Shown here: positions 10,957-23,999 of the stretch, one piece after another
Position numbering within the stretch: the stretch's first letter is position 1
How the letters are laid out: every line of letters begins with the position of its first letter
NCBI GenBank assembly: GCA_011620345.1
Contig: WOZJ01000018.1
Coordinates: forward strand, 41,428 to 78,466
From: Nitrospirota bacterium
GTDB taxonomy: Bacteria > UBA2233
Direction: 5' to 3'
DNA length: 37,039 nucleotides
The notes under the pieces: generated by a model
What the model saw: the letters and a program-made list of their open reading frames with translations, nothing else
Told to the model about the DNA's origin: nothing
The model's database searches: none
Made by a program: the position numbers and the translations under genes

Positions 10957-12432
10957 CTAAGGAAGGCGCGCGATCGTACCCGGCTGAAGCATGCTCTGCG
11001 AAAACGCCCCTTGAAATGCCGCAATGGGCGAAGAAACGAAACAGCCAAACCAAAGGACAAGGACTGCGCAGGCTGCTACGGCTACCTTCGCTCCAAACCC
11101 CTTGGGCGGGATGATCACAGCCCGAGCCTCGGGCATCATGAACAGTGCGACAAGGACGCGTAAGTAATACCCTAGGGATATGACGCTGTTTAGTACTCCG
11201 ATTACGGCTAGCACGGGCATTCCCGCCGAAAGCGCAGCGGCAAACAGGTAATATTTCCCGACAAAGCCGGCCGTTGGCGGAATCCCTATCATCGAAAGGA
11301 TGAACAACGCCATCGCCACCCCCAAGAATGGGTGGCGAAGTCCCATCCCCCTGAGGTCATCCAACGTCACGTTCTCTTCGCCACGTTGACCGAACGCAAT
11401 CACGACCGCAAACGCGCCCACGTTCATGAACGTGTATGCCAGCAGATAGTAAAGAACTCCTTGCTGACCAAGGGCGTTAAAGCTAAGCAACCCAACCAGG
11501 AGGTACCCTGCGTGTGCGATGCTGGAAAAGGCAAGAAGACGTTTGATATTCGTTTGGTACAACGCCCCCAGGTTTCCGGCAAACATGGTAAGCACGGCTA
11601 CAAGCCATCCAAAAGGCTTAAGGACGGGAAGGATATCGGGCGGAAGAGAAAAGAGGATACGTATCAGCGCTCCAAACGCGGCAACCTTGACAAAGGTCGC
11701 CATAAACGCCGTGATCGTTGTCGGCGCTCCCTCGTAGACATCCGGGACCCATGCATGGAAAGGCGCAAGGCCCGCCTTGAAGGCGAGCCCGCACAAAAGG
11801 AGAGCGAGGCCGAAGGCACACATTAGCCCATGCCGATTCGAGGAGATAGCGAGTGCAGCCAGCCCTTCAAGGTTTACAGTGCCGAGCGCACCGTAGAGGA
11901 AAGAAATGCCGTAGAGCATGACAGCGCTAAAGAATGCTCCAAGGTAAAAATATTTTAGCCCGGCCTCTGGCGATTTTCCAAAGTTCCGCTTAAGCCCGCA
12001 GAGCACGTACAGCGGCATGCTTAACACCTCAAGCCCGAGGAACAAGGTCAAAAGGCTTGCAGCTTTGAACATAAAAAACCCGCCGACCAGGCTAAGGAAG
12101 ACAAGCCCGTAGTATTCCGCCTTGTGTATCCCTTCTCTCGAGAGATAGGCAGGGGACATGAAAAGCACCAGCAGGCCGGAAATAAGGCTGAACAGCCCTA
12201 GGAACGCGCCCAATCGATCGGAAACGACCAAGCCGTAGAAAGATCGCGCAACACCGTCGATGCCAGACGAACTAAGTGAAAACCCTCCCAACGCTATTAG
12301 GGCCAAAACAGCGACCGCCCATGCGCCCGTCGGACTCGTGTTTGGCCGTTGCCATGCCCCCAGCAAGATAAACAAAAGCGCAAGGAGAGACAACGCAACT
12401 TCTACTGCGACAAGGCCAACTCGAAAATCCAT
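10957..12432 (-). CDS. nuoN: NADH-quinone oxidoreductase subunit N
   Basis: NuoN is one of the three antiporter-like, proton-pumping membrane subunits of complex I. The 491 residues are almost wholly hydrophobic, with about 13-14 membrane spans. Family features include the AYTFMNVGAFAVVI segment, a lysine-bearing helix (AGLAFKAGLAPFHAWVPDVYEGAP) and NIKRLLAFSSIAHAGYLLVG, which matches the conserved NxKRLLAYSSIxHxGY motif. It is the last gene of the operon, 3 nt after nuoM, and is followed by a terminator. Confidence 0.97.
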   Translation of the reverse strand: MDFRVGLVAVEVALSLLALLFILLGAWQRPNTSPTGAWAVAVLALIALGGFSLSSSGIDGVARSFYGLVVSDRLGAFLGLFSLISGLLVLFMSPAYLSREGIHKAEYYGLVFLSLVGGFFMFKAASLLTLFLGLEVLSMPLYVLCGLKRNFGKSPEAGLKYFYLGAFFSAVMLYGISFLYGALGTVNLEGLAALAISSNRHGLMCAFGLALLLCGLAFKAGLAPFHAWVPDVYEGAPTTITAFMATFVKVAAFGALIRILFSLPPDILPVLKPFGWLVAVLTMFAGNLGALYQTNIKRLLAFSSIAHAGYLLVGLLSFNALGQQGVLYYLLAYTFMNVGAFAVVIAFGQRGEENVTLDDLRGMGLRHPFLGVAMALFILSMIGIPPTAGFVGKYYLFAAALSAGMPVLAVIGVLNSVISLGYYLRVLVALFMMPEARAVIIPPKGFGAKVAVAACAVLVLWFGCFVSSPIAAFQGAFSQSMLQPGTIARLP

Positions 12433-12435
12433 AGG

Positions 12436-13989
12436 CTACCCTTCCCTTGAGCCGTTGTGGGCGACGATTCCGGCGGGCCTGTAAGGCTTAACCCCAGGAA
12501 CGTTGACCTCCTCGAGGATCCGGCTCAGGCTTGGCTCGAGCCTTCCCAAAAATGGGGCCGGGAACAGGCCAATCCAAACAAACGAGGCAACAAGGGGAGC
12601 CATTACGGCAACCTCGCGAAACGATAGATCCCTTAGTACGCGGTTAGCCTCGTTTCGAATAGGGCCGTAGAAGACCTTCTGGACGGCTTGAAGCAAGTAC
12701 CAGGCCCCTAGTATGACCCCAGTACCCGCGAGAACGCCGACAATCGGCTGGTTCAAGAAGCTGCCAAGAAGAATATTCCATTCCCCGATGAACCCGTTTA
12801 GGGCTGGCAAGCCGATAGACGAGAGCGTGGTGACCAAAAACAGGGTTGCATACTTAGGCATCAGGCTCCCGATACCGCCGAACTCGTCTAAGAGGCGCGT
12901 ATGCCTCCTTTCGTAGATCATGCCGACCAAAAAGAACAAGCCGCCGGTAGAGAGCCCGTGGTTCACCATCTGAAGCATAGAACCTTGGTAGGCCAGAAGG
13001 TTAAAAGAGAATAAGCCAACGATGACGAACCCCAAATGGCTAACGCTCGAGTAGGCGACAAGCTTTTTAATATCCGGCTGTACCATGGCAACCAGCGCCC
13101 CGTACACGATCCCAACGACGCCAAGGCCGAGCATCCACGGGGCGACCTCTCTGGCAACGTCTGGAAACAGAGGAATGGCAAATCGAAGGAAGCCGTACGT
13201 TCCCATCTTAAGCAAAACACCCGCTAAAATCACGCTTCCTACGGTCGGTGCTTCCACGTGGGCATCCGGAAGCCAGGTGTGAAAAGGAAAAACAGGGACC
13301 TTGATCGCAAACGCGAGCGCGAACGCAGAGAATAAGACAGCTTGCGTTGCAAAGGCCATGTCTAGCTGATACCAATCTAGTACGCTGAAAGACCATACGC
13401 CCGTCTGAGCGTGGTAGGTGTATCCACTGTAGAAAATGGCTAGCAGCATGAGCACGCTGCCCAGCATCGTATACGCAAAGAACTTCATTGAGGCATATAT
13501 CCTTCGCTCCCCGCCCCATATTCCGATGATGAAATACATCGGAACAAGGACGGCATCCCAGAATACGTAAAACAGGAACATATCCAGGCTGGCAAACGTT
13601 CCTGTAATGGCGGCCTGCTCGAAAAGAAGGCACACGAGGAGCGGCTTGAGGCGCTGGACTGAATCTCCCAGGCTAAGAACGCACAGGGGAAACAAGAGGG
13701 CGGTCAGAAGAATCAAGAACAAGCTGATTCCATCCGCGCCCAATTGGTACCGAATTCCCAATGCGGGCATCCAATCAAGGCTTTCGAGCAGGACAAAGCC
13801 ACCTCGGACCGAGGAAGAATCATACGCACAAAAGGCCCAGGCAGCAACGGAAAGCTCTACCAGCCCCCCCAAAAAAGCAAGGGTTTTCAGCGTGCCCTTC
13901 GAAGAGCCCGGAACAAAGACCAAGGCGATCGCAAGCACGACGGGGAAAAATATTAAGAACGATAGGCAAGGAAAACCTGCTACTTCCAT
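12436..13989 (-). CDS. nuoM: NADH-quinone oxidoreductase subunit M
   Basis: NuoM is an antiporter-like proton-translocating subunit in the membrane arm. The 517 residues have about 14 predicted membrane spans. Conserved elements include FALAFAIKVPVFPFHTWLPDAHVEAPT, carrying the channel lysine, and DIKKLVAYSSVSHLGFV. Both are diagnostic of the NuoM/ND4 family rather than L or N. It begins 10 nt after nuoL and ends 3 nt before nuoN, so the three antiporter-like genes are packed together. Confidence 0.97.
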   Translation of the reverse strand: MEVAGFPCLSFLIFFPVVLAIALVFVPGSSKGTLKTLAFLGGLVELSVAAWAFCAYDSSSVRGGFVLLESLDWMPALGIRYQLGADGISLFLILLTALLFPLCVLSLGDSVQRLKPLLVCLLFEQAAITGTFASLDMFLFYVFWDAVLVPMYFIIGIWGGERRIYASMKFFAYTMLGSVLMLLAIFYSGYTYHAQTGVWSFSVLDWYQLDMAFATQAVLFSAFALAFAIKVPVFPFHTWLPDAHVEAPTVGSVILAGVLLKMGTYGFLRFAIPLFPDVAREVAPWMLGLGVVGIVYGALVAMVQPDIKKLVAYSSVSHLGFVIVGLFSFNLLAYQGSMLQMVNHGLSTGGLFFLVGMIYERRHTRLLDEFGGIGSLMPKYATLFLVTTLSSIGLPALNGFIGEWNILLGSFLNQPIVGVLAGTGVILGAWYLLQAVQKVFYGPIRNEANRVLRDLSFREVAVMAPLVASFVWIGLFPAPFLGRLEPSLSRILEEVNVPGVKPYRPAGIVAHNGSREG

Positions 13990-13999
13990 GCACGCACCC

Positions 14000-15901
14000 T
14001 CAAAGCAAAAATGTCAGACACACCACGAGCACAGCGAGCGACGCAAACGCCATGAGGGCGTAGAATTGAACGTTGCCGTTTTGGAGAACGCGTACGCCCG
14101 CGCCTGCGGCGAACGTCAGGTAGGCCATCGCGTTGACCAGCCCGTCGATGAAGAACACGTCCACGACTCTCCATAGCCCCTGCGCAAGCAGGACGATTGG
14201 CCTAACCACGAGCGCATTATAGATTTCATCCACCCAGTATTTATTCCATAACAGCCGATAGCCCCTCGAGAACATCTGGCCCACCAAATAGGGTAACCCC
14301 GGGTAACGGAGGTAAAACACGTACGCTAGAAGGATGCCAAACAATGCCACGCCTAGGCTTACCGCCATCAGCGCAAATTCAGGGATGGGGGAGGCATGAG
14401 CCTCGTGGTGCGGCATGGGCAAAACACTCGACAAAAAGCCGCTGAATCGCGCAAGGGATTCAGACCCTGGAATTTCGACGAACCCGGACACGAGTGACCC
14501 TAGGGCCAAAACAACCAACGCAACGGCCATCTTAGGGCTTGCATCGTGCAGATGCTCATACGTATGCTTCTCTAGCCTGGTCTCTCCGTGAAACGCCAAG
14601 AAGATCACTCGAAACATGTAGAATGCCGTCATGAACGCCCCGAGGACTCCTAGCGCCCAAAAAATAGGCCCATAATGGATCCATAGCGCCGAAAGGATTG
14701 CATCTTTGCTGAAAAACCCGGCAAAGGGAAAGATGCCCGAGAGCGCCAACGCTCCAACAAGGAACGTCCAGTACGTAAGGGGCATTTTTTGTTTGAGCCC
14801 TCCCATCTTTTGGACGTCAAGTTCCCCGTGGAGCGCGTGCATCACAACACCGGAACCCAAGAACAAGCAGGCCTTGAAGAACGCGTGAGTGAACACGTGG
14901 AATACGCCGTAAGAAAAAGCCTGGGCGCCCAAAGCCGCGAACATGTAGCCGAGCTGGGATATCGTTGAATAGGCAAGCACGCGCTTCATGTCGTTTTGGA
15001 CGAGGGCAATGCTGGCGGCCAAAAGAAGCGTCAAGACGCCAATCAGGGTCACCACGAACAACGCGGGGGGAGAAAGGAGGTAAAGAGGATGAACCCTGGC
15101 GACCATGTACACTCCCGCAGTCACCATCGTCGCCGCATGGATGAGCGCCGAGACGGGTGTGGGGCCTTGCATCGCGTCGGGCAGCCAAACGTACAAGGGA
15201 ATCTGGGCGGATTTTCCCGTAGCGCCGACAAAAAGAAGCAACGGGATCGCGTGGACAAGCCATGCCGATCCACGGAGCACCTCCGGGGCCCTTGAAAGCA
15301 CATCGTGAAACGAGAGCGTCCCGAAGGCGTACACGATGCAGAACATTCCAACCAAAAACCCAAGGTCCCCGATACGATTCACAAGGAACGCCTTTTTGCC
15401 GGCGTTTGCGTTGACGTCCTCCATGTACCAAAACCCTATCAACAGGTAGGAGCAAAGGCCGACTCCTTCCCAGCCGATGAACATCAACAAGAAATTATCC
15501 GCAAGAACCAAAAGCAACATCGCCGTCATAAAGAGGTTGAGGTATGCGAAATACCGGCCAAAGCCTGGGTCGTCTTTCATGTAATCCGAGGAGTAGAGAT
15601 GGATAAAAAACCCGACGAACGTGACGACCGCGATCATAACCATAGAGAGCGCATCCAGGCGCAGCGCGAAGGGAATCTTCAACGTACCTATGCTCATCCA
15701 GGTGTAGAGCGTCTCGACAAAGGCGCGCTCGCCTTCCGGACTGGAGAAGAACCGCCCGCCCAAAAGCAGCATCCACAGAAGCGAAAGCCCGACGGATCCC
15801 ACGCCCACCCAAGCGATCGTACGCTTCGAGAACCGGCCTCCAAAAAGGCCGTTTACCAGAGCGCCCAACAAAGGAAACAGAAGAATAGGGAGGATCGCCA
15901 T
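14000..15901 (-). CDS. nuoL: NADH-quinone oxidoreductase subunit L
   Basis: NuoL is the distal antiporter-like subunit, with a C-terminal lateral helix that runs along the membrane arm. The 633 residues are the expected length. They show YVWLPDAMQGPTPVSALIHA, DMKRVLAYSTISQLGYM and, in the C-terminal quarter, NKYWVDEIYNALVVRP, which marks the NuoL-specific end. The helix near residue 230 keeps the GATGKSAQIPLYVWLPDA motif with its buried lysine. It follows nuoK by 11 nt. Confidence 0.97.
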   Translation of the reverse strand: MAILPILLFPLLGALVNGLFGGRFSKRTIAWVGVGSVGLSLLWMLLLGGRFFSSPEGERAFVETLYTWMSIGTLKIPFALRLDALSMVMIAVVTFVGFFIHLYSSDYMKDDPGFGRYFAYLNLFMTAMLLLVLADNFLLMFIGWEGVGLCSYLLIGFWYMEDVNANAGKKAFLVNRIGDLGFLVGMFCIVYAFGTLSFHDVLSRAPEVLRGSAWLVHAIPLLLFVGATGKSAQIPLYVWLPDAMQGPTPVSALIHAATMVTAGVYMVARVHPLYLLSPPALFVVTLIGVLTLLLAASIALVQNDMKRVLAYSTISQLGYMFAALGAQAFSYGVFHVFTHAFFKACLFLGSGVVMHALHGELDVQKMGGLKQKMPLTYWTFLVGALALSGIFPFAGFFSKDAILSALWIHYGPIFWALGVLGAFMTAFYMFRVIFLAFHGETRLEKHTYEHLHDASPKMAVALVVLALGSLVSGFVEIPGSESLARFSGFLSSVLPMPHHEAHASPIPEFALMAVSLGVALFGILLAYVFYLRYPGLPYLVGQMFSRGYRLLWNKYWVDEIYNALVVRPIVLLAQGLWRVVDVFFIDGLVNAMAYLTFAAGAGVRVLQNGNVQFYALMAFASLAVLVVCLTFLL

Positions 15902-15912
15902 GGCTAAAGCCT

Positions 15913-16215
15913 CTAGCCTTGCATCAGGTTAATGTTGTCGACGTTAATCGTCTTCCTTGTACGGTACAGCAAAAGGACAAAAGCAAGCCCGATCGCCGCC
16001 TCGGCGGCCGCAACCACCATGACCATAAAAACAAAAACCTGCCCTTCGCTCTGGCCTAACTGCCTTGCGAACGCGAGGAACTGAAGGTTCACGGCGTTGA
16101 GCATAATCTCGACCGCCATGAGAATGACGATCAAATCCCTGCGGACGACGACGCCAACCGCACCGATAAGGAAAAGGATCGCCGCAACAAACATGTAGGA
16201 AGAAGGTCCGGCCAT
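15913..16215 (-). CDS. nuoK: NADH-quinone oxidoreductase subunit K
   Basis: NuoK is a 100-residue, three-helix membrane subunit whose glutamates form part of the proton path linking the quinone site to the antiporter-like subunits. The motif MAVEIMLNAVNLQFLAF and the later glutamate in AAAEAAIGLAFVLLLYR are typical. The length equals the family norm. It sits between nuoJ (12 nt) and nuoL (11 nt) and has AAGGGG upstream of the ATG. Confidence 0.96.
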   Translation of the reverse strand: MAGPSSYMFVAAILFLIGAVGVVVRRDLIVILMAVEIMLNAVNLQFLAFARQLGQSEGQVFVFMVMVVAAAEAAIGLAFVLLLYRTRKTINVDNINLMQG

Positions 16216-16227
16216 GTAACGCCCCTT

Positions 16228-16719
16228 TTATACCTTTCGCTTGGCTAACAGAACGGCACCCACAATCCCTACGAGCAACACAAGCGATGTCAGCTCGAAC
16301 GCCAACGCGTATTCTCGAAAAAGCGGGACGGCTATGGAGCGAACGTCCCCAAACCCTCGAGAGGTCGGCATGAAGCCTTCTTTGGTCGGAAAAAACTTGC
16401 CCGCCAGGAAAAGTAGCGCCACCGCTCCAAACGCGACTCCCCAAGCCCTCGTGCCGCCGAGCGCAAGAGGAGGAAGCTCTTCCTGGGGAAGGTTCAGTAT
16501 CATGATGATGAAGCTAAACAGGACCATGACGGCACCGGCGTAGACCAACACCTGAATCACAGCAATAAAGTGTGCATCCAACAAAAGAAACAGGCAGGCT
16601 AGCGCTAACATGCTGCCCATCAAGAACACAGCGCTTACCACTGGATTCTTTTTGAAGACGACTCCTAAAGCGCAACCTACGGCCAGGGCAGAAAACAGCC
16701 AGAAGAACACCGCCTGCAT
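16228..16719 (-). CDS. nuoJ: NADH-quinone oxidoreductase subunit J
   Basis: NuoJ is a five-helix membrane subunit near the quinone end of the complex I arm. The 163 residues contain the NuoJ signature in the middle helix (ALACLFLLLDAHFIAVIQVLVYAGAVMVLF split over residues 35-65), including the pi-bulge glycine-rich VYAGAVMVLF. I placed the start at ATG 16719, 5 nt after the nuoH stop. Earlier in-frame starts would overlap the nuoH coding sequence and add about 49 residues unlike NuoJ. The gene that normally precedes it, nuoI, is absent. Confidence 0.95.
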   Translation of the reverse strand: MQAVFFWLFSALAVGCALGVVFKKNPVVSAVFLMGSMLALACLFLLLDAHFIAVIQVLVYAGAVMVLFSFIIMILNLPQEELPPLALGGTRAWGVAFGAVALLFLAGKFFPTKEGFMPTSRGFGDVRSIAVPLFREYALAFELTSLVLLVGIVGAVLLAKRKV

Positions 16720-16724
16720 AACCT

Positions 16725-17813
16725 TTACCCCTTCACGGCCAAAACCGCCACCGCAGTAACGGCGATGTTCAGCAGAACCAAGGGAAGGAGAACCTTCCAA
16801 CACAAGCTCATGACTTGATCGTACCGGAACCTGGGCAAGGTCCAGCGAATCTGCATCAACAGCCACAAGAAGATAACAACCTTAAGGCAGAAGGTAAGAA
16901 GTTGTAAGAGCGGAACCCAAAGCCCGGAAATATGCACGACCCCTACCAAAGGAAGGGCCAACCCCCTTGCAACATCTACCGGTAGCTGCCATCCGCCAAA
17001 GAAGAGCGTGGCGCTTAGACCGGCCACCAGAACCATTTCGCAAAACTCAGAGAACAGGAAGGCCGCGTATTTCATTCCAGAGTATTCCGTGAAATACCCG
17101 GCTACGATCTCAGATTCTCCTTCAGGGAGGTCAAAAGGCATCCTTTTGGTCTCCGCAAACGCCGCCGTAAAGTATAATAGAAACCCTACCGGCTGCACAA
17201 AGACGCCCCACCTGGGAATAAATCCCAACCAATAGCCGCCCTGCGCGCGAACAATCTCGTTCAAATCGAGCGTGCCGTACACCAAAAGAATACCGATCAC
17301 CGAGAGCCCAAGCACAACCTCGTAAGAGAACATCTGTGCTGCCCCCCTTAGGGCACCGAGCAGGCTGTAGCGGTTGTCCGATGCCCAGCCGGCGAGCGTA
17401 ATGCCGTAAACGGATAACGAGGCAATGGCAAACACAAGCACGACGCCGGCGTTGATGTCGCTCACCCTAAGAGATACTTCTCTCCCTAAAACGTGCACGT
17501 TGTCTCCAAACGGGATTACGGCGAACGTCATCAGTGCCGGCACGATGGCCAGGGCAGGTGAGAGCACGAACAATACGCGATGTCCATGCAAAGGAACAAA
17601 ATCTTCTTTTGTAAACAGCTTCAAGGCATCGGCGATCGGGTGGAACAGCCCGATCATACGTACCCCGAAGATGCTTGCCCTATTCGCCCCGATTCGGTCC
17701 TGGAGGACCGCGGATTGCTTGCGCTCTACCCAGGTCAAAATACCTGCTATGCCGAGCACGAACAGGAACATGAACAGGACTTTGCAGGTTACGATCAACA
17801 GGTCAATCCACAT
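16725..17813 (-). CDS. nuoH: NADH-quinone oxidoreductase subunit H
   Basis: NuoH lies at the junction of the peripheral and membrane arms and shapes the quinone-binding channel. The 362-residue protein has about eight or nine membrane spans. The family sequences include WVERKQSAVLQDRIGANR, FHPIADALKLFTKEDF, GWASDNRYSLLGALRGAAQM, AFAETKRMPFDLPEGESE and ETKRMPFDLPEGESEIVAGY, all conserved quinone-channel loops with acidic residues. It starts 3 nt after the nuoG stop. nuoJ, not nuoI, follows after 5 nt. Confidence 0.97.
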   Translation of the reverse strand: MWIDLLIVTCKVLFMFLFVLGIAGILTWVERKQSAVLQDRIGANRASIFGVRMIGLFHPIADALKLFTKEDFVPLHGHRVLFVLSPALAIVPALMTFAVIPFGDNVHVLGREVSLRVSDINAGVVLVFAIASLSVYGITLAGWASDNRYSLLGALRGAAQMFSYEVVLGLSVIGILLVYGTLDLNEIVRAQGGYWLGFIPRWGVFVQPVGFLLYFTAAFAETKRMPFDLPEGESEIVAGYFTEYSGMKYAAFLFSEFCEMVLVAGLSATLFFGGWQLPVDVARGLALPLVGVVHISGLWVPLLQLLTFCLKVVIFLWLLMQIRWTLPRFRYDQVMSLCWKVLLPLVLLNIAVTAVAVLAVKG

Positions 17814-17816
17814 ACC

Positions 17817-19430
17817 CTACGCCTCAAGATGCTTGGGTTGCTCTTCGCTGGGCAAGCTTACCCCTTCAAGCCCGACATCCGCAAGGGATGCCCCTGAAAG
17901 CCCACCAATCGCCTCGAGGAAGCGCTTTGTGATGTCCTCTAGCTTTCCAACCTGAAACGACTCGCCCATGAACTCCGCTAAGAGGCCAAGCGATTCGCCG
18001 TCGGCCAAAATGTCCCGGTTCAGCCTGTAGGCTTTCCGAACACGCTGAACATGCCCGGTAACGTTCACCCATGTGCCGTCTTTTTGGATCATGCTTGCCG
18101 ACGGGATGACAAACCTTGCCTGCGGGAAGGACGCTTTCCGTTTAGAAGCGAATATTGCTAGCGTTGGTAACGCCTTGAACGCCTCTTGCATGCCTGGCCA
18201 GGCGGCCTCAAGCCCTTCCCAAGCGTCGCCAAAAAGCATAACGGCTTCCAGCTTCCCTTCCTTGAGATCTTGCTTAAACGCATCGATAGTGTAGGGCTTT
18301 GCCGACCTAAAGGCAAAGAGGCTGAGCCCTGCAGGGTTGCTTGCCATCTCGCCCGTCAGCAAAAGGTCATCTTTTGGGCCCTTGGGCGCCGGTACGTCGA
18401 GAACAACGCGGCTCGAGCCGAAAATTTCCGCCATAAAAGCGCAAACAGTGAAAATTTCCTCGTTCGTCCTGTCCGGAGCGACAAGCGCCGCGACGGAGGA
18501 CTCTTTGGCCTTGCCCTTGAGCCCCTTAAGCTCTTGCGCTAGCACGCCAAGGAGCTCCGGCGTGGCCATTTCCTTGGTTCCGGAACCTTCCCGCACCCAT
18601 CCTTTAAGGATCAACGAGGATGAATTCTCTTCTTTATAGGAATACCTCCCGATGTCGCACATCCAGGCATGGTTTACCGAATCGTTTTGCCTGGGCGTAA
18701 ACCGGTAGATTTTTTTGTCCTTGTGCCATGCCGTAATGTTGCATCCCCTGGAACACCCTGGGCATATCGTATCCGTCCTCGAGAGGAACCAAACGCGCAT
18801 CTTGAACCGGAAATCTTCGCTCGTCAGCGCGCCTACCGGGCAAATGTCGGCCAGGTTGCCCGCATAGAGGGTGCTCAAGGGCTCCAAAAGGGCGATCTCT
18901 TCGTGGTCACCCCTGTTGGTTACGCCGATGGCACGCTTGCCGACGACCTCCTCCATAAATCGCACGCAGCGCGTACATAGAACGCACCGTTCGGCATCGA
19001 ACACGATTCCGGAACCCCAACGAATGGCCTTTCTTGGCTTTTTAACCTTGAACTCCTGCGGCATTCGGCTTTTGTAGAGCCCGACTTCCATGTAGTAGTC
19101 CTGGAGCTTGCACTCCCCGGCTTGGTCGCATATGGGGCAATCGAGGGGATGGTTAATGAAAATAAACTCCAGCACGTCAGCACGCGCTTCTTTTACTTTC
19201 TGGGAATCCGTCAGGACGGACATGCCATCTCGCACGTTTGTGTTGCAAGAGATCTGGAGCTTTGGCATCCCCTCGATTTCTACCAAACACATCCGGCAGT
19301 TACCGGCAACCGAGAGGTTGGGGTGGTAGCAAAACCTGGGGATATATACCCCTACCCGGTCGCAGACGTCGATCAGCCTCTCGCCATCCGCGACATCGTA
19401 GCGCTCACCGTTTATAACAACGCTGGCCAT
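17817..19430 (-). CDS. nuoG: NADH-quinone oxidoreductase subunit G (short form)
   Basis: NuoG carries much of the Fe-S wire in the peripheral arm. The 537 residues are shorter than E. coli NuoG (about 900), so the molybdopterin-type domain is reduced. All cluster ligands are present: N1b Cys34/45/48/62, N5 His94/Cys98/101/107, and N4 Cys149/152/155/197. There is also an extra set, Cys223/226/230/258, with the CxxCxxxCx27C spacing of cluster N7 known from E. coli and Thermus. After residue 265 the sequence is a weakly conserved remnant of the Mo-domain. ATG 19430 follows AGGAGG at 6 nt spacing; an upstream start adding 33 residues is less likely. It follows nuoF by 37 nt. Confidence 0.95.
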   Translation of the reverse strand: MASVVINGERYDVADGERLIDVCDRVGVYIPRFCYHPNLSVAGNCRMCLVEIEGMPKLQISCNTNVRDGMSVLTDSQKVKEARADVLEFIFINHPLDCPICDQAGECKLQDYYMEVGLYKSRMPQEFKVKKPRKAIRWGSGIVFDAERCVLCTRCVRFMEEVVGKRAIGVTNRGDHEEIALLEPLSTLYAGNLADICPVGALTSEDFRFKMRVWFLSRTDTICPGCSRGCNITAWHKDKKIYRFTPRQNDSVNHAWMCDIGRYSYKEENSSSLILKGWVREGSGTKEMATPELLGVLAQELKGLKGKAKESSVAALVAPDRTNEEIFTVCAFMAEIFGSSRVVLDVPAPKGPKDDLLLTGEMASNPAGLSLFAFRSAKPYTIDAFKQDLKEGKLEAVMLFGDAWEGLEAAWPGMQEAFKALPTLAIFASKRKASFPQARFVIPSASMIQKDGTWVNVTGHVQRVRKAYRLNRDILADGESLGLLAEFMGESFQVGKLEDITKRFLEAIGGLSGASLADVGLEGVSLPSEEQPKHLEA

Positions 19431-19467
19431 GCAACCTCCTTTATGATGCGCACTCGTCCCAAGCCCC

Positions 19468-20754
19468 TCAAGCTGCCCTCTTGGGCCTGACGGGACAGCG
19501 TTTCTCGCGAACGTGCGCTTCGAACTCATCCCTATATTTTTTAAGATAGCTTAAAATGGGCAGGGCACAGGCGTCCGCCAGGGGACAAATCGTTCTCGTC
19601 ATCATCCCTTTGGCAATCTTCTCCAAAAGCTCGATGTCGGAGGCCGTTCCATGCCCCCCTTCGATCCGCCTTAGGACTTTCTCGGCCCATCCCGTCCCTT
19701 CTCGACACGGAGAACACTGTCCACAAGACTCATGAGCATAGAACCTTGCCAGGTTATGGAGCGCCCAAACCATGCAGGTTCCCTCGGCCATGGCGATAAT
19801 CCCGCCAGACCCTCCCATCGATCCGATTTTGGCAAGCTGATCGAAATCCATCCCGACATCGACCTCTTCGGGCCTCAGGATCGGGGCAGAAGAACCCCCT
19901 GGAATGACGCCCTTCAGCGGACTGTCTCCAATAATACCCCCTGCGTGTTCGTATAGGATTTCCCGAAGCGGGGTCCCCATAGGAAGCTCGTACACGCCAG
20001 GTTTCTTCACGTGTCCGCTTACGCTAAAAAGCCTCGTCCCACCGTTGCGATCCGATCCTATTTTGGCGAACCATTCTGCCCCGTTGAGCAAAATCTGGGG
20101 AACATGCGCGATCGTTTCGACGTTGTTCACGATCGTTGGGCACCCGAACGCGCCCACGACGGCGGGGAAAGGAGGCTTATTGCGCGGCCTCCCGGGCTTC
20201 CCCTCGAGTGATTCAATGAGCGCTGTCTCTTCTCCGCAGATGTAGGCCCCCGCGCCAGGATGGATATAAACGTCCAGGTCAAACCCTGATTTTAAGATGT
20301 TCTTTCCTAGGTAACCGGCTTCTTTCGCCTCCGCGATCGCCTTGCCGAGCGCCTCCATACAAAACGTAAACTCACCTCGCACGTAGATATAGGCGGTATG
20401 AGCACCGAGCGCGTAAGAGGCAAGGAGCACGCCTTCAATTAGCCTATGCGGATCCCGGGTCATGATTGTGCGATCTTTGAACGTCCCGGGTTCTCCCTCA
20501 TCGCCGTTGATAAGCAAGTACACGGGCTTTTTGGAGGGCTTCGAAATAAAGCTCCACTTCATACCGGTAGGAAAGCCTGCCCCGCCTAGACCCCTTAAAT
20601 TGGAGCGCTTGACCTCTTCAATCACGCCCTCCGGGGCAATTTTTCCGAGCACCTTCCGGACCGCCTGGTAGCCTCCGGTTTTCGTGTAGGCCTCAAGCGT
20701 ATGGGAGTCCTCTAGACCAAAATTTTGCGTCAAAATCTTAATTGCTTTTTCCAT
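19468..20754 (-). CDS. nuoF: NADH-quinone oxidoreductase subunit F
   Basis: NuoF binds NADH and FMN and passes electrons to cluster N3. The 428 residues show the FMN/NADH loops GLGGAGFPTGMKW (56-68) and NGDEGEPGTFKDR (83-95), HPGAGAYICGEETALIESLEG (165-185), and the N3 ligands Cys344, Cys347, Cys350 and Cys390 (ESCGQCSPCREGTGW and TRTICPLADA). It begins 57 nt after nuoE; that spacer is the widest in the operon and has no clear terminator. Confidence 0.98.
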   Translation of the reverse strand: MEKAIKILTQNFGLEDSHTLEAYTKTGGYQAVRKVLGKIAPEGVIEEVKRSNLRGLGGAGFPTGMKWSFISKPSKKPVYLLINGDEGEPGTFKDRTIMTRDPHRLIEGVLLASYALGAHTAYIYVRGEFTFCMEALGKAIAEAKEAGYLGKNILKSGFDLDVYIHPGAGAYICGEETALIESLEGKPGRPRNKPPFPAVVGAFGCPTIVNNVETIAHVPQILLNGAEWFAKIGSDRNGGTRLFSVSGHVKKPGVYELPMGTPLREILYEHAGGIIGDSPLKGVIPGGSSAPILRPEEVDVGMDFDQLAKIGSMGGSGGIIAMAEGTCMVWALHNLARFYAHESCGQCSPCREGTGWAEKVLRRIEGGHGTASDIELLEKIAKGMMTRTICPLADACALPILSYLKKYRDEFEAHVREKRCPVRPKRAA

Positions 20755-20811: not shown

Positions 20812-21315
20812 TCATGCACCCTTTTTGGGGCCCTTAGAGAGCTCCTTTAGGGTGGATTCCAGCCTGTCGATCGTCTGAAGCTCGTAGTAGGTCTCGTTGA
20901 TCCGCACTATGGGGGACTCCCCGCACCCGCCCAAGCATTCCACCGTCTTGAGCTCGAAGAGCCCGTCCGGAGTCATCTCGCCCTCTTTGATTTTTAGCCG
21001 ATTTTTTAGGTAGGCAAGCAGCTCTTCTTGGCCAAGGAGCGCACAGGACAAGCCTCTGCACACCTGAATGACGTACTTGGCCTGAGGCCTTCTTGCAAAC
21101 AGCGTGTAGAAGGTGAGTACCTCCACGGCCACGGCAAAGGGAATCTCCAAAAGCCCGGCAACGGCTTCGGCAATAGGGTCCGAGATATAGCCAAACTCCC
21201 GGTGGACGAGGTGCAAGACCGGCAATAAACAGGCCTGTTTGGTCGGGTAGGCCTGTAGGATCGATTCGAGCTCCGCTTGGGCCTCCTCCGAGAAGGCCAA
21301 GACCTCCGGGCTCAT
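20812..21315 (-). CDS. nuoE: NADH-quinone oxidoreductase subunit E
   Basis: NuoE holds the off-path 2Fe-2S cluster N1a next to NuoF. The 167-residue protein has a helical N-terminal half and a thioredoxin-like C-terminal half with cluster ligands Cys86, Cys91, Cys127 and Cys131 (VCRGLSC and ECLGGCGESP). The start overlaps the nuoD stop as ATGA, so it is translationally coupled to nuoD. Confidence 0.96.
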   Translation of the reverse strand: MSPEVLAFSEEAQAELESILQAYPTKQACLLPVLHLVHREFGYISDPIAEAVAGLLEIPFAVAVEVLTFYTLFARRPQAKYVIQVCRGLSCALLGQEELLAYLKNRLKIKEGEMTPDGLFELKTVECLGGCGESPIVRINETYYELQTIDRLESTLKELSKGPKKGA

Positions 21316-22535
21316 CGTTCCATCTCCCCGGCAATCATGTTGAGCGAGCCAAAAACCGGAACGATATCGGCCATCATCGCCCCCTTAATCATGAAGTCCA
21401 TGGAAGAAACGATCATAAAGCACGGAGGACGCACCCGAACCCTGTAGGGACGGCCTGTCCCGTCGCTGACGATGTAGTAGCCAAGCTCTCCGTTGCCGCC
21501 TTCGACCATTTGATAGACTTCGCCTTTAGGAGGTCTAATCCCCTCGTACACGAGCTTGAAGTGATTCACCAGCCCCTCGATCGTGTGGTAGACCTCCTGC
21601 TTTGGGGGCAAGATCACCCTTGGGTCGTTCACAGACACGGGCCCGTCGGGAATTTGGCGCATACACTGCTCGATGATCCTGACGCTCTGCTCCATCTCTG
21701 CCATCCGTACGAGGTAACGATCGAGCGTATCGCCGGTTGACCCCACGGGCACTTCGAAATCTACGCGGTCGTAGGCAGAGTAAGGAAAGGCCTTACGGAC
21801 ATCGTATGCCATGCCGCAAGCCCGAAGGCAAGGCCCCGAATAAGAGAAACTGAGCGCGTCTTCTTTGGAAATCGCCCCTACGTTGCGTGTCCTGTCGATA
21901 AAAATCCGGTTCTTAGTGAGCAGCTTGTCGGTCTCCGAGGTTACCTCCCTGATCACCGGAAGAATATCCCTAAGGTGCTCGAAAAACCCTTCCGGCAAGT
22001 CTGCCGCCAAGCCGCCCGGCCTCATGTAGTTGATCGTGAGCCGATGGCCCGTTACCTCCTCGAGGATCCGGTAGATGAGCTCCCTTCCCTTCATGAGGTA
22101 CAGAAACGGCGTGAACGCGCCAAGCTCCATGGCTGCCGCACCGATGCAGGTTTGATGGTCGCTGATCCTGGAGAGCTCGGAGAGCATCGTCCGGATATAT
22201 TTGCAACGTTCGGGCACATCCACGCCAAAGAACTTTTCGACGGCCAGACAGAAGCCCTCGTTGTTGATCAACGGGGAGACGTAATTGAGCCGGTCCGTGT
22301 AGGGAATGCAGAGCTGGTAGGTATGGTTCTCGCACTCTTTTTCGAACCCCCTATGGAGGTAGCCGAAGTTTGTATCCGAGTAAACGATAGTCTCGCCCTC
22401 AACTTCGACCACGATTTGGATAACGCCGTGCATTGCAGGGTGGGACGGACCAACGTTTACTCGCATCCTGCGGGTTTCCGTTGGCTCAAGGATATCAACC
22501 TCGGCAGAAGGGGAAAGGCTTTTTTCGGTATCCAT
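21312..22535 (-). CDS. nuoD: NADH-quinone oxidoreductase subunit D
   Basis: NuoD is the 49-kDa-type subunit, related to NiFe hydrogenase large subunits. With NuoB it forms the quinone-reduction site. It has 407 residues. Conserved segments include VGPSHPAMHGVIQIVVEVEGE, with the quinone-head His in the HPAMHG loop, GYLHRGFEK, YTDRLNYVSPL and, at the C-terminus, IVPVFGSLNMIAGEMER. ATG 22535 has AGGG 9 nt upstream; a TTG three codons earlier is possible. It is separate from nuoC, not fused as in E. coli. Confidence 0.97.
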   Translation of the reverse strand: MDTEKSLSPSAEVDILEPTETRRMRVNVGPSHPAMHGVIQIVVEVEGETIVYSDTNFGYLHRGFEKECENHTYQLCIPYTDRLNYVSPLINNEGFCLAVEKFFGVDVPERCKYIRTMLSELSRISDHQTCIGAAAMELGAFTPFLYLMKGRELIYRILEEVTGHRLTINYMRPGGLAADLPEGFFEHLRDILPVIREVTSETDKLLTKNRIFIDRTRNVGAISKEDALSFSYSGPCLRACGMAYDVRKAFPYSAYDRVDFEVPVGSTGDTLDRYLVRMAEMEQSVRIIEQCMRQIPDGPVSVNDPRVILPPKQEVYHTIEGLVNHFKLVYEGIRPPKGEVYQMVEGGNGELGYYIVSDGTGRPYRVRVRPPCFMIVSSMDFMIKGAMMADIVPVFGSLNMIAGEMER

Positions 22536-22553
22536 GCGACTCAACCCTAGGCT

Positions 22554-23090
22554 CTAAATTCCCTCTTCCTCTTCCCTTTCGGGAGAAAGAAGAGGTACAC
22601 GAGGTTGGGATTTCTTAAGCGGGTAGTCTTTCCTCAGGGGGTAGCCCTCAAACTCGTCGTACATCAAAATCCGGCGCAAATCGGGATGGCCTACGAACCG
22701 GATTCCGAACATATCGTAGACTTCGCGCTCAAGCCAGTTTGCGCTCCGCCAAAGAGGAGCAAGCGAGGCAATCGTTGCGTCTTCCTCGGGAATGCGCGCC
22801 TTCACGCGAAGCCGCTTCCCCGATTCAAAGGCAAGCAGGTGAACGACCATCTCGAACCGCGGCTCCTGCCCGAAGTAATCGACACAGGTCAAGTCCACTA
22901 GGTAGTTAAAGGCCAAAGAAGGGGCGTCTTTCAAGAACTGGAGGATATCCAGCCATCGCTCTCTTTGGACAACGACTGTATCGTCCCCAAAATCGCTTCG
23001 GTGAGCAAGCACCACGTCCCCAAAGCGCCCCTTAAGGGCGCTCAAAAGATCGGAAAACGCGACGGGAGCCGATGTTTTAGTGCTGGCCAT
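22554..23090 (-). CDS. nuoC: NADH-quinone oxidoreductase subunit C
   Basis: NuoC is the 30-kDa-type subunit of the peripheral arm. The 178 residues contain the family signature WLEREVYDMFGIRFVGHPDL, followed by RILMYDEFEGYPLRKDYPL near residues 115-160. The first 14 nt overlap the end of nuoB and the gene ends 18 nt before nuoD. Its short acidic tail (SPEREEEEGI) is not conserved in the family. Confidence 0.96.
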   Translation of the reverse strand: MASTKTSAPVAFSDLLSALKGRFGDVVLAHRSDFGDDTVVVQRERWLDILQFLKDAPSLAFNYLVDLTCVDYFGQEPRFEMVVHLLAFESGKRLRVKARIPEEDATIASLAPLWRSANWLEREVYDMFGIRFVGHPDLRRILMYDEFEGYPLRKDYPLKKSQPRVPLLSPEREEEEGI

Positions 23091-23655
23091 GGAGCTCTTT
23101 GAACCCTTGCTTCCGTAGCGCCCTGCGCTTATTCATGTAGCCTTCCTGCTGGATTTGTGCTTGAAGCATGATGAGCCCATCCAACACAGCCTCCGGTCTC
23201 GGAGGACACCCAGGGATGTAAATGTCGACAGGGATGATCCTGTCCGCCCCACGAACTGTCGTGTAGTTGTCGTAAAAACCGCCCGAAGAAGCGCACGCAC
23301 CGAAGGCGATGACCCACTTGGGCTCGCACATCTGCTCGTACACCCGCTTTAAGATCGGGGCCTGCTTGTGGTTGATCGTGCCGACGATAAACAAGACGTC
23401 GGCCTGCCTTGGCGTGAACCGAGGCATTCCCGCACCAAAACGGTCGATGTCGTAATGGCTCACGGCCACCGACATGAATTCCATCCCGCAACAGGCCGTT
23501 ACAAAGGGATACTGAAAAATGGAATACTTCCTAGCCCAGCCGATGGCCTCGTCGAGCTTGGCCATCACAAACCCGCTTGGCGGAGCTGGGCGGGCCTTCT
23601 GGAGCGTGTCTTTGAGCTCCTGGTTCAAGTGCTCGTAATCTATGTTTAATCCCAT
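23077..23655 (-). CDS. nuoB: NADH-quinone oxidoreductase subunit B
   Basis: NuoB carries cluster N2, the last Fe-S cluster before quinone. The 192-residue protein has the N2 ligands: tandem Cys55-Cys56 (FVTACCGMEF), the cysteine in GACASSGGFYDNY and the one in PGCPPRPEAVLDG. The start at 23655 has AAGGAG 7 nt upstream; an ATG 7 codons earlier lies deeper in nuoA and is less likely. It overlaps nuoA by 10 nt and nuoC by 14 nt. Confidence 0.97.
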   Translation of the reverse strand: MGLNIDYEHLNQELKDTLQKARPAPPSGFVMAKLDEAIGWARKYSIFQYPFVTACCGMEFMSVAVSHYDIDRFGAGMPRFTPRQADVLFIVGTINHKQAPILKRVYEQMCEPKWVIAFGACASSGGFYDNYTTVRGADRIIPVDIYIPGCPPRPEAVLDGLIMLQAQIQQEGYMNKRRALRKQGFKELHGQH

Positions 23656-23999
23656 TCTAGAGCTCCTTTCTTCCATGCATAGGCCAAAGCGCCTACCAAA
23701 AACAGCAGGAACGCTAACATTTCAACCCCTGCAACAAGACCTAAGTCCTTGAGAATCACCGCCCATGGAAAGAAGAAGACGCTCTCAACGTCGAACAGGA
23801 CGAACAAAAGCGCCACCAGATAGAAGCGTACGTGGAGGGGCTGCCTAACAGGCCCGTACACCTCGACACCACACTCGAAAGGCTCGAGCTTCGAGGGGGT
23901 CATCGCCTGGGGGCCGAGCAGCCTGTTGGCAAGGACGAACACGATCGCCGTGACGCTGGAAAGAACAAACAGGATCAACAGCGGAACGACGGTGTACAT
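23646..23999 (-). CDS. nuoA: NADH-quinone oxidoreductase subunit A
   Basis: NuoA is a three-helix membrane subunit next to NuoH and NuoJ. The 117 residues show the conserved loop LEPFECGVEVYGPVRQPLHV, with the cysteine that becomes accessible in the deactive enzyme of mitochondria, and then FYLVALLFVLFDVESVFFFPWA. It is the first gene of the operon, about 50 nt downstream of a predicted promoter. No good Shine-Dalgarno sequence precedes the ATG. Confidence 0.97.
   Translation of the reverse strand: MYTVVPLLILFVLSSVTAIVFVLANRLLGPQAMTPSKLEPFECGVEVYGPVRQPLHVRFYLVALLFVLFDVESVFFFPWAVILKDLGLVAGVEMLAFLLFLVGALAYAWKKGALEWD

Follow-up and report, generated by a model that had tools for sequence, protein, structure and literature searches.

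The window analysed here, a stretch of 37,039 nucleotides taken as a whole, carries a nuo operon that raises one question: from where does its complex I obtain the NuoI subunit? NuoI normally holds clusters N6a and N6b, the step between NuoG and NuoB. An earlier note on this DNA had claimed that nuoI is missing from an otherwise complete nuo operon, and our reannotation bears this out. All 13 window Nuo proteins (13/13) were matched by NCBIfam or Pfam in the order that the note had given, nuoA-B-C-D-E-F-G-H-J-K-L-M-N, and the genes occupy the minus strand from position 23999 to position 10957, as follows:

23646..23999, minus strand: nuoA (NCBIfam NuoA models, up to E 2e-28)
23077..23676, minus strand: nuoB (NF011392 over cut-off, E 1e-82)
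22554..23090, minus strand: nuoC (TIGR01961 over cut-off)
21312..22544, minus strand: nuoD (TIGR01962 over cut-off, E 1.5e-148)
20812..21315, minus strand: nuoE (TIGR01958 over cut-off)
19468..20754, minus strand: nuoF (TIGR01959 over cut-off, E 1e-184)
17817..19430, minus strand: nuoG, a short form of about 537 aa from its likely start (TIGR01973, E 8e-120), with the domains Fer2_4, NADH-G_4Fe-4S_3, Fer4_Nqo3 and Molybdop_Fe4S4
16725..17813, minus strand: nuoH (NuoH models, E 5e-96)
16719..16727, minus strand: junction of the nuoH stop and the nuoJ start, the usual site of nuoI, with a 5-bp spacer
16228..16719, minus strand: nuoJ (NuoJ models, E 7e-32)
15913..16215, minus strand: nuoK (NF004320 over cut-off)
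14000..15901, minus strand: nuoL (PF00361 and PF00662)
12436..13989, minus strand: nuoM (PF00361, E 1.6e-75)
10957..12432, minus strand: nuoN (PF00361, E 1e-71)

At this junction, the TAA of nuoH (16727-16725) and the ATG of nuoJ (16719), both on the minus strand, are separated by a gap of 5 bp. The double CxxCxxCxxxCP motif had been reported as absent from the frames of the window, and the absence extends further, as not even one CxxCxxCxxxC motif was found in any frame of the whole window. For nuoG, the start is most likely at 19430 rather than at the longest-ORF start, 19529, because residue 35 of the long frame is where the 2Fe-2S domain begins. The window NuoG (17817-19529) matches the family well only over the Fe-S part, and similar lengths were observed in many of the sampled lineages.

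The genome that contains the window is a draft of 1,795,685 bases (1.80 Mb) in 72 contigs, 96.8% complete. A NuoI profile search of the whole genome returned two good homologues, one from a stand-alone gene (E 5.5e-31) and one from a second nuo operon (E 9.9e-23):

G000:C26:127218-127760: stand-alone nuoI, 180 aa, ATG start, on another contig than the window, between pgsA and mrp/apbC
L010:4902-15016 (G000:C53): second nuo operon, nuoA-B-C-D-H-I-J-K-L-M-N, without nuoE, nuoF and nuoG, with its own NuoI

The ATG of the stand-alone gene is preceded by an AGGAGG site, and the gene lies about 28 bp from pgsA and about 16 bp from mrp; a scan for promoters and terminators around it gave nothing above chance. 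Its product possesses two intact 4Fe-4S CxxCxxCxxxCP motifs, CTACMLCATACP and CIYCGDCVEACP, and resembles the solved NuoI/NDUFS8/Nqo9 chains over both of them, with 8qby_I as the best match (E 2.3e-26) and 5lc5_I and 2fug_9 matched as well. Against TIGR01971 it scored 106.5-107.1 bits, below the curated cut-off of 113 bits, yet this was its best family hit; that cut-off, which is a conventional naming threshold and not a biochemical feature, was missed in 25 of the 26 genomes searched too. All 14 core subunits of complex I are encoded in the genome, 13 in the window and NuoI on C26. The earlier note had offered three explanations for the gap, of which a gene elsewhere in the genome agrees with the intact NuoI on C26, while another ferredoxin-like protein and a lost subunit were not supported. 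In the terms of that note, an intact two-4Fe4S NuoI homologue found elsewhere by a genome-wide search amounts to simple relocation.

The absence of nuoI from the operon is a change of gene order, with no subunit lost. We are highly confident that the enzyme is an ordinary 14-subunit NADH:quinone oxidoreductase with a displaced nuoI, its fourteenth subunit being supplied by the stand-alone C26 gene. NuoI made from this gene would assemble with the products of the window operon, and would be expected to carry N6a and N6b in the usual way.

The same arrangement was observed in the next relatives after UBA2233, which we call Binatota-type, namely Binatota and the genomes, variously titled in their records, that group with them. 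In each of the 22 readable Binatota-type nuoH loci, nuoH is followed directly by nuoJ with no nuoI between them, and every genome behind these loci possesses a stand-alone NuoI. The Binatota-type stand-alone NuoIs are about 60% identical, and the stand-alone nuoI has a rhodanese-ThiF fusion gene about 0.1-3 kb downstream in 32/32 loci (L042-L073). Among the comparison lineages (NuoI loci L014-L040), nuoH is directly beside nuoI in 22 of 27. Several further features of the Binatota-type genomes were noted. In L062, L063, L066, L069 and L072, nuoB, nuoF and nuoG lie outside the main operon, downstream of the stand-alone nuoI at a distance of about 5 kb; one locus (L043) has the record title Klebsiella pneumoniae and Binatota-like genes, so that the title looks wrong; and most of the genomes checked also have a second nuoH, accompanied by a NuoI of its own. 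Complex I has been reported in all Binatota genomes, in a paper whose main text does not mention the nuo genes (PMC8262859, 2021). In the open-access papers searched, we found no description of nuo gene order in Binatota, nor of a phylum-wide displacement of nuoI in Binatota and UBA2233.

The second operon of the genome provides another candidate source of the subunit. The set nuoABCDHIJKLMN is that of an 11-subunit complex I-like enzyme without the NADH module, and the window complex might borrow the NuoI of this operon (hereafter type II NuoI), the stand-alone NuoI then serving some other partner. We regard such borrowing as very unlikely, even if a second NuoI does exist in the same genome, since six genomes (G009, G041, G042, G043, G049 and G054) have a single nuoH, of the window type, and a single NuoI, encoded by the stand-alone gene. 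NuoF was over cut-off in all five of these six that were tested (5/5), and G009 is 95% complete. As the sole NuoI of genomes with a single nuoH, the stand-alone NuoI must be a complex I subunit in these six genomes if they are near complete. In addition, type II and stand-alone NuoI are only 42% identical over 125 residues and fall into separate supported clades. The NuoI tree unites the stand-alone proteins from UBA2233, Binatota and G009 in a single clade (support 100/98), which is nested among the NuoIs of ordinary nuo operons; the type II NuoIs form a clade of their own. An AU test that grouped the UBA2233 stand-alone NuoI with the type II NuoIs gave p 0.08, so that this grouping is not firmly rejected, a point that counts for borrowing, and the NuoI tree alone does not settle which NuoI serves the window operon.

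A true loss of NuoI, leaving a complex that either dispenses with N6a and N6b or uses an unrelated ferredoxin, would agree with the absence of nuoI from both the operon and the window. We rejected it, and give it almost no weight, on the basis of the intact and conserved NuoI, which this genome shares with every UBA2233 and Binatota-type relative checked. Candidatus Cutipiota is the name under which the phylum UBA2233 is listed, with two genomes of 1.8-1.89 Mb (PMC11382960). In a further genome of this genus, Nitrospirae bacterium UBA2233 (G001), we observed the same nuoH-nuoJ junction with the same 5-bp spacer, nuoH and nuoJ being 96% and 91% identical between the two genomes, and the same pgsA-nuoI-mrp arrangement, with a stand-alone NuoI that is 94% identical. 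Although the assembly is a draft of 72 contigs, an assembly or binning artefact, with nuoI dropped at the junction or with a stand-alone gene that came from another organism, is extremely improbable, and the assembly error at the junction that the earlier note had named as a possible refutation is excluded by this independent second genome and by the 22 Binatota-type loci.

As for the displaced nuoI, either the gene would have moved once, in or before the lineage common to UBA2233 and Binatota, or it would have spread between them after its move; the arrangement would then have been kept in both. As judged from the trees, nuoI may have moved once in an ancestor or may have been transferred, because the NuoH tree does not place UBA2233 next to Binatota and the concatenated H-J-K-L-M-N tree, in which joining UBA2233 and Binatota gave a p-AU of 0.38, does not resolve the placement.

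The neighbour of the stand-alone gene also deserves attention. Ind1/NUBPL is the mitochondrial Fe-S assembly factor of complex I. The Mrp/ApbC encoded beside nuoI belongs to the same P-loop family (PF10609). In Yarrowia, Ind1/NUBPL is an assembly factor needed for normal levels of complex I (PMC6196649). The pairing of nuoI and mrp in UBA2233 is a small hint of a possible link between an Ind1-like carrier and NuoI. However, the adjoining mrp may be just the housekeeping copy, because PF10609 detected no other high-scoring ApbC-type Mrp in the genome. The pairing is also absent from Binatota, where the rhodanese-ThiF gene adjoins nuoI instead; for both reasons the pairing, although suggestive, may be a coincidence, and a dedicated role of mrp for NuoI is only weakly supported. 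One speculation, which we consider improbable, is that nuoI adjoins mrp in UBA2233 because there is a benefit in producing NuoI alongside its cluster carrier; the locus apart from the operon would then mark a dedicated step of N6a/N6b loading.

These results indicate that an operon of complex I can be without nuoI across two phyla while the subunit is still encoded; therefore, automatic pathway calls that rely on a complete operon could mistakenly flag complex I as defective. Compared with the bacterial 14-subunit complex I (NDH-1, nuoA-N), the system described here has the 13 operon subunits in canonical order apart from I, with NuoI encoded elsewhere; it differs in the location of nuoI, which is at a separate locus next to mrp. 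The 11-subunit complex I-like enzyme has its counterpart in the second operon of the same genome, whereas the window operon possesses nuoE, nuoF and nuoG and is without nuoI. In Bdellovibrionota, three loci (L095, L098 and L112) have nuoI after nuoG in a nuoB-C-D-E-F-G-I cluster, and no adjacent nuoH was found. Such split clusters, and the nuoC-D-I clusters of Acidobacteriota, resemble the present case in that nuoI is apart from nuoH and nuoJ, but there nuoI stays among other nuo genes, whereas in UBA2233 it stands alone.
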